IMG/VR virus record: IMGVR_UViG_3300008107_005172
Location: 1-40,124 of that record
Origin: a virus
Length of the DNA: 40,124 nucleotides
Strand: one strand, 5' to 3'
The position numbers were made by a program, and so were the translations under genes. Below, piece by piece: positions 9,116 to 36,923 of this stretch; position 1 is the stretch's first letter, and the number at the start of each line of letters is the position of its first letter. The notes beneath the pieces were generated by a model. The model ran no database searches, was not told the DNA's origin, and worked only from the letters and a program-made list of their open reading frames with translations.

Positions 9116-9775
9116 ATGGCTCGTTACACTCGTCCCGTCTACAACACTGCTGATGTTTTCGCTGCTGCTTGTGCAGCCCAGCGTATCAACGGTGAATATC
9201 TCAAGACCGATGATGTTACCTATCATGACGATGGGCACGAATATAGCCATACCGTCAATCGTGTCGCTAATAAGACTCTTACTCACCAGTTTTTGAAGGG
9301 TGATTTTGATATTAGTGACGAAGACCGTGAAATGGCTGAGAAGGTCATGCAGTATTGCCGCGGTCTTACATTCAAATTGCTGACTGATAAGCGTTTGAGC
9401 GACTTTGAACAGACCATGCTCACTATCGTTGAAAAGCCTACCACCGACAGCAACTATGATATTGCTGTTACTGCCTCTCTTCCTGCTAGCTACGAACGTT
9501 CTATTGCTCGTGCAGCACAGAACATTCGCCTTCGTGAGAATGCTGGTTGCATTGAAGCGCCTGTTGGCTCTAAGATTGAACTTGACATTGAGGTTGTTCG
9601 CTGCAATTGGAGCAATGAATGGGGCGTTTTCTATGTTACTGCTATCGCTGATGCCGGTGTAGTGTTCTTTGCACAGCAGAATAAGATTGAAGTTGACTCC
9701 AAGATTCGTATCAAGGGTAAGGTCAAGCGTCACAAGGAAGATCGTACCCAGCTTAGTCATGTAAAGTTTCTATGA
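9116..9775 (+). CDS. hypothetical protein with OB-like C-terminus
   Basis: 219 residues. The N-terminal half is helical with several conserved-looking acidic positions (ADVFAAACAAQRINGEYLKTDDV). Residues about 150-219 form a beta-rich unit (GSKIELDIEVVRC...VFYVTAIADAGVVFFAQQNK...RIKGKVKRHKEDRTQLSHVKFL) that looks like an OB-fold nucleic-acid-binding domain; this is an inference from strand pattern and basic loops. Strong promoter and AAGGAG site. The last bases overlap the next ATG by four (ATGA). Confidence 0.75.
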   Translation: MARYTRPVYNTADVFAAACAAQRINGEYLKTDDVTYHDDGHEYSHTVNRVANKTLTHQFLKGDFDISDEDREMAEKVMQYCRGLTFKLLTDKRLSDFEQTMLTIVEKPTTDSNYDIAVTASLPASYERSIARAAQNIRLRENAGCIEAPVGSKIELDIEVVRCNWSNEWGVFYVTAIADAGVVFFAQQNKIEVDSKIRIKGKVKRHKEDRTQLSHVKFL

Positions 9776-10182
9776 TTGAACAACTCAAGAAACGCTGGAA
9801 AGGGTACAAAGAAAAGCGATTCTTAGAAACGCACGGTTGCAAGACCTGGCGTGAGTATGAGCGTAGATACGATAAGGATATTGGGCCTATGGCAAGATGG
9901 GCCCACACCTTTTACCACGGATACCCTTACATATTTCCCCTAGATCCTCAAGGGCTTCGTGATTACGGAATGCTCGGAGTTATGCCATATCATGATTTAG
10001 TAGACCAAATGATGGAATGGTGCGAACAAAATTGTCAAGGTAAGTGGCGCAATGATTGGCACCGTGGATTTTGGGATGGCCATGGCAACTACGAATTAAA
10101 TGGTATCGGCGGCGGCGATATTATGTTCTTTGCATTCAAAGAAGAAGCCGACTATGTTTGGTTTACATTGGTGTGGTCATGA
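9772..10182 (+). CDS. small protein of the WCxxNC / F-x-L-x-W-S tail family
   Basis: 136 residues. The central MMEWCEQNCQGKWRNDW and the GGDIMFFAFKEEADYVWFTLVWS ending are matched by the protein at 36705 (MIEWCERNC...NGDTMFYGYEFFFESEKDYVAFLMWKK), so the two are paralogs. The C-terminus follows the F-x-x-E-x-D-x-x-x-F-x-L-x-W-S pattern shared by a set of small proteins in this window. The last five codons (10168-10182) overlap the next start. Function unknown. Confidence 0.75.
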   Translation: MIEQLKKRWKGYKEKRFLETHGCKTWREYERRYDKDIGPMARWAHTFYHGYPYIFPLDPQGLRDYGMLGVMPYHDLVDQMMEWCEQNCQGKWRNDWHRGFWDGHGNYELNGIGGGDIMFFAFKEEADYVWFTLVWS

Positions 10183-10391
10183 CATATACGTTATGCATAA
10201 ACGATAAAAATAATCAAACCCAAGTTTGGTGGATAAACTTCTTACTTAGTTTGCCTAATGATATTAAAGATATTCCCAAAGAACTTAAAGCCTGGGGTGC
10301 AACAATTCCATACGATAGAAATGGTTATAGCGATACTATCGTGTTTGACAGAGAAGAAGATTTAGCATGGTTTCTGTTGAAATGGGGATAA
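10179..10391 (+). CDS. small protein with F-x-L-K-W-G tail
   Basis: 70 residues from ATG 10179 in an ATGA overlap; the same frame is open upstream but covered by the previous gene. It starts MTYTLCINDKNNQTQVWWINFLLSLP and ends IVFDREEDLAWFLLKWG, the same tail type as its neighbours. Its VWWINFL segment resembles IWWKNFM of the protein at 29419, a probable paralog. Confidence 0.75.
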   Translation: MTYTLCINDKNNQTQVWWINFLLSLPNDIKDIPKELKAWGATIPYDRNGYSDTIVFDREEDLAWFLLKWG

Positions 10392-10624
10392 GAAAATATA
10401 AACTTGTCAGACGCGGACCAAAGTATTGTGTTCGTGTCAAAGGTATTATTAATACAACTAAAGCCTACCATTGGTGCCGCGAAAGGAACATGAGTTATCA
10501 TATCAAGCAGCATTGGAACACTAGATGGGACCAAATGTACTTATATGAAGTTCGGGACTGGGATTATAGCTTCATCTTTGACAAAGAGTATGAAGCCACT
10601 GCCTTTATGATAGGCTTCCTGTAG
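10382..10624 (+). CDS. small basic protein with related tail
   Basis: 80 residues from ATG 10382, within the end of the previous gene; an in-frame ATG at 10367 is less likely. Basic N-terminal half (GIRKYKLVRRGPKYCVRVKG) and an ending FIFDKEYEATAFMIGFL that keeps the F-x-x-E-x-x-A-x-x-F pattern but loses the final Trp-Ser. Function unknown. Confidence 0.7.
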   Translation: MGIRKYKLVRRGPKYCVRVKGIINTTKAYHWCRERNMSYHIKQHWNTRWDQMYLYEVRDWDYSFIFDKEYEATAFMIGFL

Positions 10625-28569: not shown

Positions 28570-28598
28570 TTGACATTACCTCGTTTTGGGCATATAGT
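28570..28598 (+). promoter_or_regulatory. early-type promoter flanked by an inverted repeat
   Basis: TTGACA, 17-base spacer, TATAGT (28593-28598). ACCTCGTTT (28578-28586) in the spacer and AAACGAGGT (28613-28621) in the leader are perfect inverted 9-base arms either side of the -10, as an operator would be. The right arm contains the GAGG ribosome site. Confidence 0.8.
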
Positions 28599-28626: not shown

Positions 28627-29016
28627 ATGTTCAACGTAGGCGACACTGTTACGATCAAAGTTCGTAACGCTCTCTATGACATTCGTGACCGTTATGCTAA
28701 TGGTTATGTTGGTCCCGAATTCAACGAATATACTGGCACCATTGTGCGTGAAAAGTGGTTTGATGCTGACGAAATCGGCATCACCAGCGATGTGCCTGGC
28801 CTTAAGTTTCGTCGTATTCACCGTAGTCGTATTGTTGAAGTCAGTGGTGCTAAGATTGATTACACTACGGTCAAGAGCAACCGTGAAGTTATCACTGTTC
28901 AGGGTAGTAAGGGTAACACTTACACTGTTATCAAGGAAAATGGTAAGGCTACTTGCACTTGCGTAGGCTATTCGTTCCGCAAGACTTGTAAGCATGTTCA
29001 AGAGGTTCTTGCATAA
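28627..29016 (+). CDS. SWIM zinc-finger protein with KOW-like N-terminus
   Basis: 129 residues. N-terminal beta unit FNVGDTVTIKVRNALYDI...EYTGTIV (KOW/SH3-like), a middle section, then a C-terminal SWIM-type zinc finger: TCTCVGYSFRKTCKHV gives C-x-C-x8-C-x-H. SWIM domains bind DNA or proteins in transposases, SWI2/SNF2 ATPases and similar proteins. Here the finger is stand-alone. Early codons, own promoter. Probably a nucleic-acid binding early protein. Confidence 0.8.
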   Translation: MFNVGDTVTIKVRNALYDIRDRYANGYVGPEFNEYTGTIVREKWFDADEIGITSDVPGLKFRRIHRSRIVEVSGAKIDYTTVKSNREVITVQGSKGNTYTVIKENGKATCTCVGYSFRKTCKHVQEVLA

Positions 29017-29213
29017 TGCGTGTTCGTGCTGTTATTGAGTTTGACCTCACATTTAACGATGATATTCCAAACATTGAGGAGTTAACTGCATACCATAACG
29101 CTAACCTAAGCGAGAGTATTGCTTTGGAAATCAAAAATCTTCTAGAGGATGAGCATCGCGGTTTAGCAGAATATGATAGTGCTGTTGTGTCTGTTCAGGA
29201 AGTTCTAGCATGA
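29016..29213 (+). CDS. small hypothetical protein
   Basis: 65 residues, TAATG junction. MRVRAVIEFDLTFNDDIPNIEEL...AVVSVQEVLA: a beta-alpha-beta pattern common to small phage proteins. ATGA overlap to the next. Confidence 0.7.
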   Translation: MRVRAVIEFDLTFNDDIPNIEELTAYHNANLSESIALEIKNLLEDEHRGLAEYDSAVVSVQEVLA

Positions 29214-29422
29214 TCATTGATATTACAGAATCTTCATTCATGAAAGTATCTGTTGACGAGGGTAATGCTTGGATGGTCAAACATGTCGGTGAGCTGATAC
29301 AGGATGATCCTGACCATTCGGTTGGTGAAGGCTGGGCCATCATATTTGAAAAAGACACCGGCTCTTGGGTAATGAAAATTGATGATGCTAAGGCGGCATT
29401 CTTTCTATTGAGGTGGTCATGA
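29210..29422 (+). CDS. small protein with F-x-L-R-W-S tail
   Basis: 70 residues, first of a run of genes joined by the same junction. Acidic (MIIDITESSFMKVSVDEGN) with the ending MKIDDAKAAFFLLRWS. The last codons TTGAGGTGGTCATGA (29408-29422) encode Leu-Arg-Trp-Ser-stop and supply ribosome site AGGTGG and ATG for the next gene. Function unknown. Confidence 0.75.
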   Translation: MIIDITESSFMKVSVDEGNAWMVKHVGELIQDDPDHSVGEGWAIIFEKDTGSWVMKIDDAKAAFFLLRWS

Positions 29423-29646
29423 AACTCTCGTACAATCTTAAGACTTGGTACTGGGGCATCGAAAGCGGGGAAGAACAGCCTCCTATTTGGTGGAAAAACT
29501 TCATGAAAACTATAGATGATCATAAGGACTATGCGATAAAGCTAAAACCTTATGCTACCTTTAGACCTAAGGGTATGACAAATAAGTGCCGTGTTGTGTT
29601 CAACAGTCCCGAAGACCTTACATTTTTTATCTTGAGGTGGTCATGA
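29419..29646 (+). CDS. small protein with F-x-L-R-W-S tail
   Basis: 75 residues from ATG 29419. Contains PPIWWKNFMKTIDDHKDYAIKLKPYATF, similar to the 10179 protein (VWWINFLLSL...). Ends VVFNSPEDLTFFILRWS, with the same TTGAGGTGGTCATGA junction at 29632-29646. Function unknown. Confidence 0.75.
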   Translation: MKLSYNLKTWYWGIESGEEQPPIWWKNFMKTIDDHKDYAIKLKPYATFRPKGMTNKCRVVFNSPEDLTFFILRWS

Positions 29647-30011
29647 CTAGCGATCCTAAGAAGAACGATATAAAGATTGACCCGGTGATGTTGCCTGTTA
29701 TCAAGAACATTATGTCTAATGTTGTTGTTAATGAAATTATCGGTGTCCAGCCAATGGTTAATGTAGCTGATATGATTAATCCCTTCACTAAGAAGTGGGA
29801 AAAGATTGGCATGGATGTGCCTACTGACAAGTGGGTATATAATGTTCGTTCGCAAGAAATTAGAGCATGGATTGAAGAACAACCCGCACATATGTGGAAG
29901 GTCTACGATATTGATAAGTTCAATAAGGATACACCTATCTCTGCAATAACGGGAGAGAACTATATCTTTACAGAAGAAATGGAAGCTTGGTTTATGTTGA
30001 GGTGGTCATAA
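29643..30011 (+). CDS. protein with F-x-L-R-W-S tail
   Basis: 122 residues from ATG 29643. A variable N-terminal body (PVMLPVIKNIMSNVVVNEII) followed by IEEQPAHMWKVYDID and the tail YIFTEEMEAWFMLRWS. Junction TTGAGGTGGTCATAATG at 29997 onward. Function unknown. Confidence 0.75.
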   Translation: MTSDPKKNDIKIDPVMLPVIKNIMSNVVVNEIIGVQPMVNVADMINPFTKKWEKIGMDVPTDKWVYNVRSQEIRAWIEEQPAHMWKVYDIDKFNKDTPISAITGENYIFTEEMEAWFMLRWS

Positions 30012-30235
30012 TGGCATTTTATTTTGATGGGATGGGTCCAGCAGTGTTAAAATGGCATTGGAAAGAGCGTAGGGTTTGGTCACCTTTTCTTAGGTGCCAA
30101 CGTACTCGCAAGTTTTTATTTCTTAAAAAAGCATATTATGGTCGCTTTTATGTTGACTGGGAGTTTGAGCGTGATCTATGGCTTTCGTCAGAGGAGTTTA
30201 TGATCGCCGTGTTGAAGGGCGAGTTTGATGAGTAA
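30011..30235 (+). CDS. small basic protein, paralog of 31739
   Basis: 74 residues from ATG 30011. The RKFLFLKKAYYGRFYVDWEFERDLWLSSEEF part aligns with LWLKKAWRCRFYDWSGEEDEWYSEQ of the 31739 protein. Many Trp, Arg and Lys. It does not carry the RWS tail. Function unknown. Confidence 0.7.
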   Translation: MAFYFDGMGPAVLKWHWKERRVWSPFLRCQRTRKFLFLKKAYYGRFYVDWEFERDLWLSSEEFMIAVLKGEFDE

Positions 30236-30443
30236 AGTGACTGTAGTTAGAACCAATAAGCGGTTCACGATGTATAAGAAAGTTGCTAGGCGTAAGGGTC
30301 GGGGCAGCAAATTCCAGTGGAACGCAAAATCTCAATATGTTATTACCTACTCCGGTGAGAATTATCCTAACAAGCCGGCTAAAGTCTTTAAGTCACTTGA
30401 AGAAGCTGACAAAGAGTGGGTTTATCTGACGTTGAGGTACTGA
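30228..30443 (+). CDS. small basic protein with related L-R-Y tail
   Basis: 71 residues from ATG 30228, inside the end of the previous gene. Highly basic N-terminal half (NKRFTMYKKVARRKGRGSKFQW), then FKSLEEADKEWVYLTLRY, a variant of the shared tail (TTGAGGTACTGA at its end). Function unknown, possibly nucleic-acid binding. Confidence 0.7.
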   Translation: MSKVTVVRTNKRFTMYKKVARRKGRGSKFQWNAKSQYVITYSGENYPNKPAKVFKSLEEADKEWVYLTLRY

Positions 30444-30445
30444 AC

Positions 30446-30652
30446 ATGGACGCTGAAAAGGAAAACACTTTTAGAATGTTAAGAGAAGAGGAATTGCTCG
30501 TGACCTTTTGGGGCTGTAGGATTGGTTGGCATAAGTGGACCAAATATCGTGAACCCGAAAAGTATAAAGAATCATACTATGAGGTTGTTAGTCAGCAGCG
30601 TAGATGCGGTTCGTGTAATAAAGCTGACCGAAGAATCATAAGCAGAGTATGA
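30446..30652 (+). CDS. small Cys/Trp-containing protein
   Basis: 68 residues from ATG 30446. WGCRIGWHKWTKYREPEKY and a C-terminal RRCGSCNKADRR supply Cys and His residues for a possible zinc site. ATGA overlap to the next gene. Confidence 0.65.
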   Translation: MDAEKENTFRMLREEELLVTFWGCRIGWHKWTKYREPEKYKESYYEVVSQQRRCGSCNKADRRIISRV

Positions 30653-30903
30653 AAGATTACACTCCCTATCGGAACACTTTCTTAGTACACAAGTGGACCC
30701 ACATACCAGTGCGGGATGAATGGCTACATCCTAATCATGTGTTTGGACTAAGGAACCCATTATCTCAAGAAATGAAAGAATGGCTTGACAAAAACGTTAA
30801 AGCACACTATGCTTTTCTTGAAGATGAAGATAATTACGTGAACCATGTGTTGGCGTTTTCTCGTGAATATGATGCAACTTTTTTTCTATTGAGGTGGACA
30901 TAA
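30649..30903 (+). CDS. small protein with F-x-L-R-W-T tail
   Basis: 84 residues. MKDYTPYRNTFLVHKWTHIP, a VFGLRNPLSQEMKEWLDKNVKAHY section similar to the IRAWIEEQPAHMW part of the 29643 protein, and the tail LAFSREYDATFFLLRWT. Junction TTGAGGTGGACATAATG (30889 onward). Function unknown. Confidence 0.75.
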   Translation: MKDYTPYRNTFLVHKWTHIPVRDEWLHPNHVFGLRNPLSQEMKEWLDKNVKAHYAFLEDEDNYVNHVLAFSREYDATFFLLRWT

Positions 30904-31247
30904 TGCAAATCGCAATCGCAGATACTACAGGCAATGTTTCTATTTGGTGCAACGTCAATAGCATCAATGAAGATGGTTCCATTAACTTTTGGGTAATCAA
31001 CGGTGCCTGGCCAGGTAGGTATCATAATAATCGGATTTTCATTGAGAAAGATACCGAGGCTAGTTTTCCCGGTATGCTAGTATGGGTTGGCAAAGCCAAA
31101 TTCAGTAATTGGGACTATAACGAAGCTATCCACTGGATTCAAGATCAGATTGATGACCCTGACTATGTAATGACGCAGCCCGATCAATATGTTGAACCTG
31201 TTAGGGAATACAAAGATGAAGACGAATGGGATGATGTTCCTTTCTGA
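30903..31247 (+). CDS. hypothetical protein, OB- or SH3-like
   Basis: 114 residues from ATG 30903. Beta-rich N-terminal part (MQIAIADTTGNVSIWCNVNSINEDGSINFWVING) followed by a negatively charged C-terminus (REYKDEDEWDDVPF). The acidic tail is like those of single-stranded DNA-binding proteins (which end DDDIPF), but the domain is short and this is only a resemblance. Function unknown. Confidence 0.65.
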   Translation: MQIAIADTTGNVSIWCNVNSINEDGSINFWVINGAWPGRYHNNRIFIEKDTEASFPGMLVWVGKAKFSNWDYNEAIHWIQDQIDDPDYVMTQPDQYVEPVREYKDEDEWDDVPF

Positions 31248-31506
31248 ACCAAAAGAGAAGGTGATGTACTTAGCCCTGCAGGATTGTTATCCTCTGGTTA
31301 CTCCATCTATGGAGTTTGTCAGCAATCTCTTTCATGCGTTTGATAGAGATTCTGATGATAACGCACTTGATACTTGGGCAACACGGCTAGAACGTTGGTT
31401 GCCACAGAACGTTGGACTATTGCGTGATCCAGTAGATGTTAACTGGGATAAATTTAGGGTAGTGGACGAGAAGCTATATAGTTTTGCGCTATTGAAATAT
31501 TCATGA
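31216..31506 (+). CDS. small protein with F-x-L-K-Y-S tail
   Basis: 96 residues from ATG 31216, chosen for the AGGGA site 8 bases upstream; later ATGs at 31231 or 31264 are possible. It overlaps the previous gene by 32 bases. Ends FRVVDEKLYSFALLKYS, a variant of the shared tail (TTGAAATATTCATGA, 31492-31506), overlapping the next ATG. Confidence 0.65.
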   Translation: MKTNGMMFLSEPKEKVMYLALQDCYPLVTPSMEFVSNLFHAFDRDSDDNALDTWATRLERWLPQNVGLLRDPVDVNWDKFRVVDEKLYSFALLKYS

Positions 31507-31739
31507 CAGAAAACGAAGCAACACAGAAATGGTGTCCACACGCCAGAAAATATCACGGTAACGGTTCTTTCAATCGTACTGATAATGATGCTAAGCCTGG
31601 TGGCACTCATTGCATAGGGTCAAAGTGTATGGCTTGGCGCTGGGTAAAGGATCCGCTGATTGCATTCGTAGCCAACGGTCAACCAGTTCCTGACTATACA
31701 GGTGAACACGGTTATTGCGGGTTAGCAGGACCATTATAA
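31503..31739 (+). CDS. small Cys-rich conserved phage protein
   Basis: 78 residues. KWCPHARKYHGNGSF...GGTHCIGSKCMAWRWV...GEHGYCGLAG has four Cys and several His in a zinc-binding arrangement. The CIGxxCMAWRW and GYCGLAG motifs mark a family I recognise from many phages, without known function. Confidence 0.78.
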   Translation: MTENEATQKWCPHARKYHGNGSFNRTDNDAKPGGTHCIGSKCMAWRWVKDPLIAFVANGQPVPDYTGEHGYCGLAGPL

Positions 31740-31945
31740 TGGCACCTTTACTTGACGATGATTTCGTTTGGAATCGTGCTGTGCATAGCAGACGAATATC
31801 GTTTCTTCCTAGAAAATGCTACATATCAGGCGAATCATTGTGGCTAAAGAAAGCATGGCGTTGTAGATTTTATGATTGGTCCGGAGAAGAAGATGAATGG
31901 TATTCTGAACAAACATATGTTTGGAAAAAATTACAATACGGTTGA
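31739..31945 (+). CDS. small basic protein, paralog of 30011
   Basis: 68 residues from ATG 31739 (TAATG junction). SLWLKKAWRCRFYDWSGEEDEWYSEQTYVWKKLQYG matches the C-terminal part of the 30011 protein. Last gene of the run; the next promoter begins in its final codons. Confidence 0.65.
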   Translation: MAPLLDDDFVWNRAVHSRRISFLPRKCYISGESLWLKKAWRCRFYDWSGEEDEWYSEQTYVWKKLQYG

Positions 31946-31970
31946 CAACGGTCCTATAATTTGATATAAG
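31942..31970 (+). promoter_or_regulatory. early-type promoter
   Basis: TTGACA, 17-base spacer, TATAAG (31965-31970). Leader TATTGCAAGGAGAT matches the other cassettes. Confidence 0.88.
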
Positions 31971-31992
31971 AGTATATTGCAAGGAGATATCT

Positions 31993-32406
31993 ATGACGAT
32001 GCATTTGCTCGGCCCACAGTTTTCTACTACTTCTACTCGTAAGCGTAAGAAGAAGCTTACCGATGGTCAATACACTAAGATGTGTATTGATTGGGTCGCC
32101 TATAACAAGCAGATGAAGAAGATGGGCTGCAAGACTAAGACTCTTGAGGAGTATATTGCATATCGTCAGGGCAAGTATAAGCCCCAGCTTAAGGGCGTTG
32201 TCAAGGACCCTATGCAAGCTGCTACCCTGCGCCGAGAATCTCCTAAATACGAATCCGGTGTTGGTATTGGTGTTGGGGGCGCACGTAAGGAAAATGTCTA
32301 CACTGGTACATTGATTAAGGGCATCGCTACTATGCATAAGAGCAACGCTGTTCCTATCATTGATCAAAAGCAAGCAGAAGAAATTGCAAGAATGCGGCGC
32401 GGATAA
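31993..32406 (+). CDS. hypothetical phage protein, basic
   Basis: 137 residues. MTMHLLGPQFSTTSTRKRKKKLTDGQY then a helical WVAYNKQMKKMGCKTKTLEEYIAYRQGK, as in a protein family of T4-like phages with an N-terminal L-G-P-x-F-S-T-T signature. The C-terminus has a Gly-rich turn (SGVGIGVGGARKENVYTG) and a helix. Function unknown. Confidence 0.78.
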   Translation: MTMHLLGPQFSTTSTRKRKKKLTDGQYTKMCIDWVAYNKQMKKMGCKTKTLEEYIAYRQGKYKPQLKGVVKDPMQAATLRRESPKYESGVGIGVGGARKENVYTGTLIKGIATMHKSNAVPIIDQKQAEEIARMRRG

Positions 32407-36315: not shown

Positions 36316-36733
36316 GTTTATAGATTATTTTATGAGGGTAGCAGAACTTACTGCTACACTTAGTTACGCTAAACGTTTGCAAGTTGGTGCTGTTATTGTT
36401 AAGGGCAATCAGACTATCGGCACTGGCTACAACGGTATGCCTACTGATTGGGAGAACACTTGCGAGATTGAACTTGAAGATGGTTCACTTAAGACTAAGC
36501 AGGAAGTCCTCCACGCTGAAACAAACGCTATTGCAAAGGTAGCAAGGTCAACTGTATCAAGCGAGGGCGCAACGCTATTCTGCACTCACGCCCCCTGTAT
36601 TGATTGTGCAAAGCTTATCTATCAAGCCGGCATTGAAACTGTGTACTATAAAGAAACATATCGCAGTGAAGACGGCTTAAACTTTCTTAGAAAGAGCGGC
36701 ATCAATGTCCATCAATATACCGACCGCACATAA
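36305..36733 (+). CDS. dCMP deaminase-family protein
   Basis: 142 residues. Zinc-dependent cytidine/deoxycytidylate deaminase fold with HAETNAIAKVA (His ligand, Glu proton shuttle) and APCIDCAKLIYQAGI (two Cys ligands). It would convert dCMP to dUMP for dTMP synthesis, as T4 Cd does, or, as in ComE-type proteins, a related nucleotide. Overlaps the next gene by 29 bases. Confidence 0.9.
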   Translation: MKLKFIDYFMRVAELTATLSYAKRLQVGAVIVKGNQTIGTGYNGMPTDWENTCEIELEDGSLKTKQEVLHAETNAIAKVARSTVSSEGATLFCTHAPCIDCAKLIYQAGIETVYYKETYRSEDGLNFLRKSGINVHQYTDRT

Positions 36734-36923
36734 GGCTAATGTAGCAGTAGAGTTTGGACAACTTTCCTCCATGATAGAGTGGTGTGAAAGAAACTGTGTC
36801 TCTGATTGGCGAATGTCAGGAGAAGCTACAGAACAATGGAACGGCGATACTATGTTTTATGGTTATGAATTCTTTTTTGAATCTGAAAAAGATTATGTAG
36901 CATTTTTGATGTGGAAGAAATAA
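36705..36923 (+). CDS. small protein, paralog of 9772
   Basis: 72 residues from ATG 36705 (29-base overlap; a later in-frame ATG near 36769 is possible). MIEWCERNCVSDWRMSG and NGDTMFYGYEFFFESEKDYVAFLMWKK match the C-terminal half of the 9772 protein, so this is a shorter relative. The tail ends MWKK instead of the common RWS. TAATG junction. Confidence 0.65.
   Translation: MSINIPTAHKANVAVEFGQLSSMIEWCERNCVSDWRMSGEATEQWNGDTMFYGYEFFFESEKDYVAFLMWKK

Follow-up and report, generated by a model that had tools for sequence, protein, structure and literature searches.

An array of small phage genes joined by codons that probably double as ribosome sites and built on an uncatalogued protein domain

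How a large T4-like phage could acquire, drop and rearrange small accessory genes by the dozen, with each of them still translated, is the question raised by a run of short genes at positions 29210-31506 of the virus record IMGVR_UViG_3300008107_005172 (IMG/VR). The stretch analysed here (the window) is a virus contig of 40,124 bases, a fragment of a T4-like phage that carries rIIA, rIIB and an ATP-dependent ligase, and no DNA similarity to known phages was found for the region. The original prediction, made from the sequence alone, had proposed that the codons of a shared C-terminal tail, L-R-W-S-stop, double as the ribosome site and start of the next gene, and that tail and junction form a modular cassette system for proteins with otherwise unrelated bodies. 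We consider it likely that these genes are translation-coupled units, the 3' end of each acting as the ribosome site of the next, which recombine at repeated junctions as a fast-changing accessory repertoire. This would place a concrete mechanism for gene turnover within protein-coding sequence, where peptide motif, ribosome site and start codon are one sequence.

Junctions between the array genes

At positions 29408, 29632, 29997 and 30889 the codons TTG AGG TGG TCA/ACA close one small protein, while AGGTGG and an overlapping ATG open the next, and the next start lies inside or beside the stop as ATGA or TAATG. The reading frames are those that had been described, and TTGAGGTGGTCATGA occurs exactly at both positions claimed for it, 29408-29422, where the LRWS-stop of array gene 1 provides the putative ribosome site and ATG of gene 2, and 29632-29646, between genes 2 and 3. 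The near copies listed with it fared unevenly. Those at 29997 (TTGAGGTGGTCATAA, a TAA variant with one mismatch) and 30889 (TTGAGGTGGACATAA, an ACATAA variant with two mismatches) were confirmed, and belong to the junctions TTGAGGTGGTCATAATG (29997-30013), joining the end of gene B to the start of the 30011 gene, and TTGAGGTGGACATAATG (30889-30905), joining the end of gene D to the start of the 30903 gene. In the copies at 10168 (TTGGTGTGGTCATGA), 10377 (TTGAAATGGGGATAA) and 31492 (the degenerate junction TTGAAATATTCATGA, 31492-31506, without AGG), the theme of the peptide is preserved and the starts still overlap, but AGGTGG as a ribosome site is missing. One further junction was absent from the earlier list, the gene at 30228-30443 ending in TTGAGGTACTGA (LRY).

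A search for the junction with up to 3 mismatches gave 5 matches in the window against 1.21 expected, a count reached in 2 of 100 shuffles. Codon choice at the junctions is also beyond chance: in twelve large window genes AGG accounts for 9 of 249 arginine codons (3.6%), whereas all 5 arginine codons at the LRW/LRY position between 29.2 and 30.9 kb are AGG.

The shared tail is part of a whole small domain

IMG/VR was searched with the pattern [ED][ED][AED]xxFxLRWx-stop, the arginine codon being left free, and among the matches listed several often stood in tandem. Aligned members share one layout, in which a W(C)-containing helix lies between the first strand and a W-containing second strand, followed by a strand with F-x-F and a final helix EDAxxFxLRW, and the shared tail corresponds to strand 3 plus helix 2 of a beta-alpha-beta-beta-alpha domain of about 60 residues. 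AlphaFold gave this same topology for a 58-residue member, with a mean predicted local distance difference test score (pLDDT) of 90.5. A family profile built from 81 members, all from outside the window, matched 8 window genes at an expectation value (E) below 0.002, while the best reversed-sequence control reached E = 3.7. The claim of a common tail on unrelated N-terminal bodies was thus not borne out, since alignments, profile and predicted structure explain the tails by ordinary homology of a whole small domain and not by a tag. Most of the supposedly unrelated bodies are the diverged first half of this domain, and the truly different ones are extra modules upstream of a complete domain, several of them pieces of the capsid protein gp23.

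The array, on the + strand like its junctions, the promoter-like site and the other family genes of the window, contains gene 1 (29210-29422, 70 amino acids, ending AAFFLLRWS, E 0.0011), gene 2 or A (29419-29646, 75 amino acids, ending TFFILRWS, E 1e-5, with orthologues in the related contigs L004, L005, L006 and L081), gene 3 or B (29643-30011, 122 amino acids, ending AWFMLRWS, E 4e-5), in which an N-terminal gp23-like segment precedes the family domain, and gene D (30649-30903, 84 amino acids, ending TFFLLRWT, E 9e-10), whose orthologue at L081:5417-5671 is 81% identical. The open reading frames (ORFs) of these four close with LRWS, LRWS, LRWS and LRWT, respectively. Gene C (30228-30443, 71 amino acids) has the tail-like end WVYLTLRY and lies below the profile threshold, and gene E (31189-31506), recognized from sequence and synteny, ends FALLKYS where its relatives have LLRYS. 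Two small genes without the tail are started by the junctions at 29997 (30011-30235, no family match) and 30889 (30903-31247). Elsewhere in the window, the profile matched genes at 9772-10182 (136 amino acids with an N-terminal extension, ending WFTLVWS, E 6e-5), 10179-10391 (70 amino acids, ending WFLLKWG, E 3e-4), 10382-10624 (degenerate end AFMIGFL, E 3e-4), whose ATG start lies within AAATGG of the preceding gene, and 36705-36923, outside the array (degenerate end YVAFLMWKK, E 3e-5).

The nearest predicted structures in BFVD are uncharacterized proteins of uncultured Caudovirales phages (for example A0A6J5LU01, template modeling score 0.88, E 1e-4), which share the predicted fold and a detectable similarity but carry no function or family name. 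Foldseek against the PDB returned nothing below E 2.3 for the domain, and thus no significant solved relative; with regard to a possible RRM/ferredoxin-like fold, the best structure comparison was VIA Z 6.4 to a designed minibinder, with Z 4.6 to the RNA recognition motif (RRM) of KIAA0430. When 89 members were scanned with Pfam and PHROG (E < 0.001 over the domain), no family was found for the domain itself; PHROG matched only major head protein, and Pfam gave Gp23 along with three isolated matches of single members. A literature search for LRW tails, paralogous small-protein arrays and capsid-fragment fusions found nothing relevant. These genes represent a large, very abundant and so far uncatalogued phage protein family built on one domain of about 60 amino acids, whose last helix ends F-x-L-R-W-x at the C-terminus of the protein.

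In the 1.21 Mb of fetched loci the profile made 669 matches. Whole records held up to 41 members (G009, 154 kb) and several others 29-32; copies were nearly gapless across 15 kb of one related contig, and in a 19-kb stretch of G009 the majority of 65 called genes were members or tail-like. Among isolates, the profile found zero members in T4, S-PM2, P-SSM2, phiM12, Cr30, RpAliso and XacN1 (7 of the 8 isolates of one set) and none in RaK2, phage G, phiM9 or S-SSM7, and it made a single marginal match in HTVC008M. Searches with four members by tblastn against known isolates gave weak matches, yet these pointed to Sinorhizobium phage Phosso (469 kb), for which the profile confirmed 41 members; Agrobacterium phage Atu_ph07 has 6. 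An abundant domain without a library entry, present in 41 copies in a cultivated phage, makes its function testable in the laboratory.

Junction DNA is conserved beyond protein need

Ordinary homology of the whole domain accounts for the tails but not for the junction DNA, which is conserved beyond amino-acid demand. In a set made non-redundant at 60%, AGG encoded the LRW arginine in 220 of the 312 members that are followed by an adjacent start, and in 0 of the 16 that are not (Fisher p 9e-9), so that the bias appears only where a gene follows, and internal arginine codons of the same members used AGG at a background rate of 8.8%. A first, smaller and independent set had given 51 of 75 with a next start and 2 of 12 without. 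The family junctions comprised 234 ATGA overlaps, 12 GTGA overlaps and 54 TAATG. At the same loci, a 6-nucleotide match to TAAGGAGGTGATC was present in 45% of 196 family ATGA junctions and in 9.7% of 361 other ATGA junctions, and in 1% at sixty nucleotides upstream; AGG stood at position -8 from the ATG in 53% of the family overlaps versus 10% of the other ATGA overlaps.

Gene order and homology breakpoints

Gene order in related phages had been proposed as a check on shuffling, and both content and order indeed change at the junctions. Four related contigs share a slot between homologues of the gene at 28627-29016 and of the genes at 31739-32406, which contains two members in L004, about six in L005 and L006, about eight in the window and thirteen in a row in L081, nearly all of them ending LRWS, LRYS or LRFS. 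The order within the slot is permuted: gene E follows D in the window, stands directly after A in L005 and L006, and comes two genes after A in L081. The homologue of the 31503 gene follows A directly in L004, with the switch in homology at TCATGA, and the homology block with the window stops at the junction at 29632-29646 and restarts at 31501.

Across the loci, 811 family junctions were compared with the ends of DNA-homology blocks, and 22.1% of them had such an end within 12 nucleotides, a 15.6-fold excess over the shifted control; the share was 29.7% for AGG-type junctions and 14.2% for the other family junctions. A total of 32 blocks of 140-450 nucleotides had both ends on family junctions and thus correspond to one gene each. 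Single-gene sharing was also seen between L016 and L043, which have one gene in common (about 93% DNA identity) while their flanks are no more alike than random sequence, and in L124 and L137 only the domain half is in common, at 90-98%, ending at the stop codon. The modular cassette claim is thus supported as regards breakpoints at junctions, single-gene sharing and permuted synteny, but not as regards the swapping of tails between unrelated bodies.

Proposed mechanism and alternative explanations

In compact arrays, the (L)RW codons TTG AGG TGG would pair with the 3' end of 16S rRNA; by our own pairing, GAGGTGGTC could do so over 9 bases with one G-U. The stop would overlap the next start, as TCATGA or TAATG. 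Any gene placed downstream would thus find its ribosome site in the 3' end of the gene before it, and its start within the preceding stop. A unit "ATG...TTGAGGTGGTCATGA" could then be inserted, deleted, duplicated or permuted at a repeated junction of about 15 bp while translation stays coupled. The repeated junction itself would be the recombination site, with translation coupled in vivo, and the abundance, small size and turnover of the genes suggest that the arrays serve as accessory repertoires for host interaction or against defences.

Several points weigh against this model. Homology blocks also end at 11.7% of 1440 other small genes, 6.1 times the shifted control, and any viable replacement of a whole gene breaks at gene ends, so that what the junction adds is a matter of degree. 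Gene density differs between the classes, and dense arrays may contain more than their share of AGG junctions, in which case the proportion of breakpoints at these would be inflated. AGG is absent from 3 of the 7 listed window junctions, and no recombination event was observed as it happened. In Phosso the tails vary (FKLAW, FKLTW; LAW, LTW, LMM) and the junctions mostly use codons other than AGG; since this phage has the family in abundance, the coupling is not universal. The same observations would fit an ordinary array of fast-evolving paralogues, in which overlap and embedded ribosome site reflect generic compactness, genes turn over as accessory genes usually do and the junction has no special role; embedded ribosome sites are usual at ATGA overlaps, and the non-family junctions exceed background too. 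We regard this as improbable, though the most serious of the alternatives, given that breakpoints are about twice as frequent at family junctions as at other small genes (2.5 times by enrichment ratio), that AGG junctions hold them twice as often as other family junctions and that the family ribosome sites are stronger than those of other ATGA overlaps at the same loci.

Two further explanations concern the tail itself. Were LRW conserved solely as a code for the ribosome site and dispensable for the protein itself, the strong tie of AGG to the presence of a next start would be expected, but the 16 members without an adjacent next start retain LR(W/F/Y) with other arginine codons, the motif extends upstream (F..E.DA..F) to residues where no ribosome site is needed, and Phosso retains FKLxW without AGG. 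This makes the explanation very unlikely, and the peptide appears to be selected for the protein as well as for the ribosome site, because it is kept, with other codons, where no gene follows. Least probable, and already largely refuted, is a tail that moves as a mobile module between unrelated proteins. In some pairs the tail DNA is indeed 86-91% identical although the DNA before it, aligned without gaps, has low identity; gapped alignment, however, turns the strongest of these into whole-gene paralogues (z 9 to 28), in the other pairs the bodies score at chance (z about 1) and the tails are alike only at family-consensus residues, and the tail is integral to the predicted fold. The candidate pairs for tail-only exchange were accordingly rejected as whole-gene paralogues or consensus-only matches.

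Capsid segments and other N-terminal pieces

The N-terminal part of gene B contains a segment resembling the gp23 N-arm or Gol region (29673-29759, including NEIIGVQPM). Its Pfam Gp23 match (19.7 bits, E 6e-4) lies below the cut-off of 24.4 bits, while BLAST against the gp23 of a related contig gave E 1.6e-7 (55% over 31 amino acids), and none of 1530 shuffled N-termini reached E <= 1e-5. Five other fusions exceed the Pfam cut-off (24.9 to 47.5 bits), and a related fusion in G003 (L175) is a clear Gp23 match at 52 bits. The segment aligns with T4 gp23 around GVQPM at residue 113, which we place in Gol, presumably residues 93-121. This 29-residue stretch of gp23 binds EF-Tu and is an activator of the Lit protease (PMC3014915). 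In a scan of 24 records, short Gp23 matches occurred in small ORFs, with full-length gp23 elsewhere in several of the same records; compared with a full T4-like gp23 (Pfam PF07068), the array proteins are homologous only over 30-60 residues, fused to a new domain. Many contigs have such segments in front of the tail domain (L124:2715-3098, L101:4270-4566, L120:8473-8811, L058 11793-12171 and L175), and in the cultivated phage Phosso (L150 3436-3874, XYS97328.1) the piece fused to this domain comes from the C-terminal part of gp23 (DAAVFYTPYVPL).

For an unbiased test, the N-terminal extensions of members were searched against 1142 other ORFs. Matches at E <= 1e-3 were obtained for 22 of 306 extensions and 1 of 1530 shuffled queries (16 and 0 at 1e-5), most of them to three regions of gp23 and weaker ones to a DnaB-type helicase P-loop, NrdA and a GH19-like motif. 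Permutation of motifs gave the same picture, with observed against expected counts of 11 and 0 for GVQPM, 7 and 0.01 for NLCxE[IV], 5 and 0.005 for the P-loop and 2 and 0 for polymerase motif A. The gp23, NrdA-like and polymerase-like segments are carried independently by two domain subfamilies, and where the ratio of nonsynonymous to synonymous divergence (dN/dS) was computable, that of the gp23 segment (0.09-0.44) was similar to that of the domain. The homology of the N-terminal segments to gp23 is solid. NrdA, polymerase and helicase motifs are tentative leads, identified by BLAST to related phages and motif permutation only; the NrdA family search (PF02867) did not match the small ORFs, and neither phmmer against the PDB nor Pfam supported the NrdA, helicase or polymerase snippets. 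The apparent choice of conserved motifs may in part be a detection effect, because only conserved segments are recognizable.

Individual loci illustrate the diversity of these pieces. Between L124 and L137 synonymous divergence is 0.79 in the gp23 segment and 0.25 in the domain behind it, as if the N-terminal piece had been replaced. NLCKEI stands at the N-terminus of members of two subfamilies (L043, L016, L139, L143, L145, L097 and L019), followed in L043 and L016 by LCTLG, as in the ribonucleotide reductase active site, and accompanied in L143, L145 and L097 by a P-loop. Strings resembling polymerase B motif A (DVSSMYPS, DISSMYPS, DVNSLYP) occur N-terminally in L050 (gene ending 5770), L161 19506-19812 and L081:4831-5106; the last of these is the homologue of window gene B, which has the gp23 segment instead. 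KGRGxxQ(L/I)TGRQ, a GH19 endolysin-like string, begins two small proteins (L054 907-1321 and L090 985-1834), one of which is a family member.

A possible interpretation, which we put forward with more doubt than confidence, is that the arrays are more than a shuffled repertoire and that the domain presents short N-terminal copies of conserved segments of the phage's own hallmark proteins (three of gp23 and, tentatively, NrdA NLCxEI...LCTLG, polymerase B motif A and the DnaB-type P-loop), kept under purifying selection and exchanged between units. Such copies might be decoys or competitors for host defences that recognize conserved phage proteins, in the way that Lit senses Gol, or might interfere as peptides with rival phages. 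The capsid-segment fusions raise the directly testable question of what the array proteins bind.

Comparison with known systems

PeSLs are reportedly mobile regulatory cassettes of T4-type phages, made of intergenic promoter and stem-loop units. The array resembles them in that short repeats between small accessory genes permit modular shuffling in T4-like phages, but its repeated joint lies inside coding sequence, and the array region showed neither a stem-loop or terminator at the joints nor, by consensus scan, an early promoter per joint or an excess of promoters; unlike PeSLs, the joint would act through translation. Stop-start overlaps of the ATGA or TAATG type provide translational coupling with a ribosome site inside the upstream gene. 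The family junctions share both the overlap and a Shine-Dalgarno sequence in the upstream gene, and differ in that the conserved C-terminal peptide of one protein family gives the upstream site, gene after gene. The "ORFanage" of cyanophage S-PM2 holds many small orphan genes of a T4-like phage, gained and lost as a region with rarely conserved synteny (PMC4503421); it is likewise a block of small orphan genes, but S-PM2 has no member of the LRW-tail domain family.

Transcription signals and flanking genes

Promoter-like sites were at chance level in the region (10 against 9.4 expected, in a consensus scan with other promoter types outside its scope). One of them, TTGACA-17-TATAGT at 28570-28598 (11 of 12 consensus matches), lies upstream of the co-directional gene run that includes the array and is a possible operon promoter. 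A single terminator-like site was found in 28.5-32.1 kb (2.3 expected), not at a junction, and an Rfam scan of 28.0-32.5 kb found no known RNA. The conserved gene to the left of the array (28627-29016) has a Cys/His-rich end (CTCVGYSFRKTCKHV) resembling a SWIM zinc finger, and its homologues mark the array slot in L004, L006 and L081.

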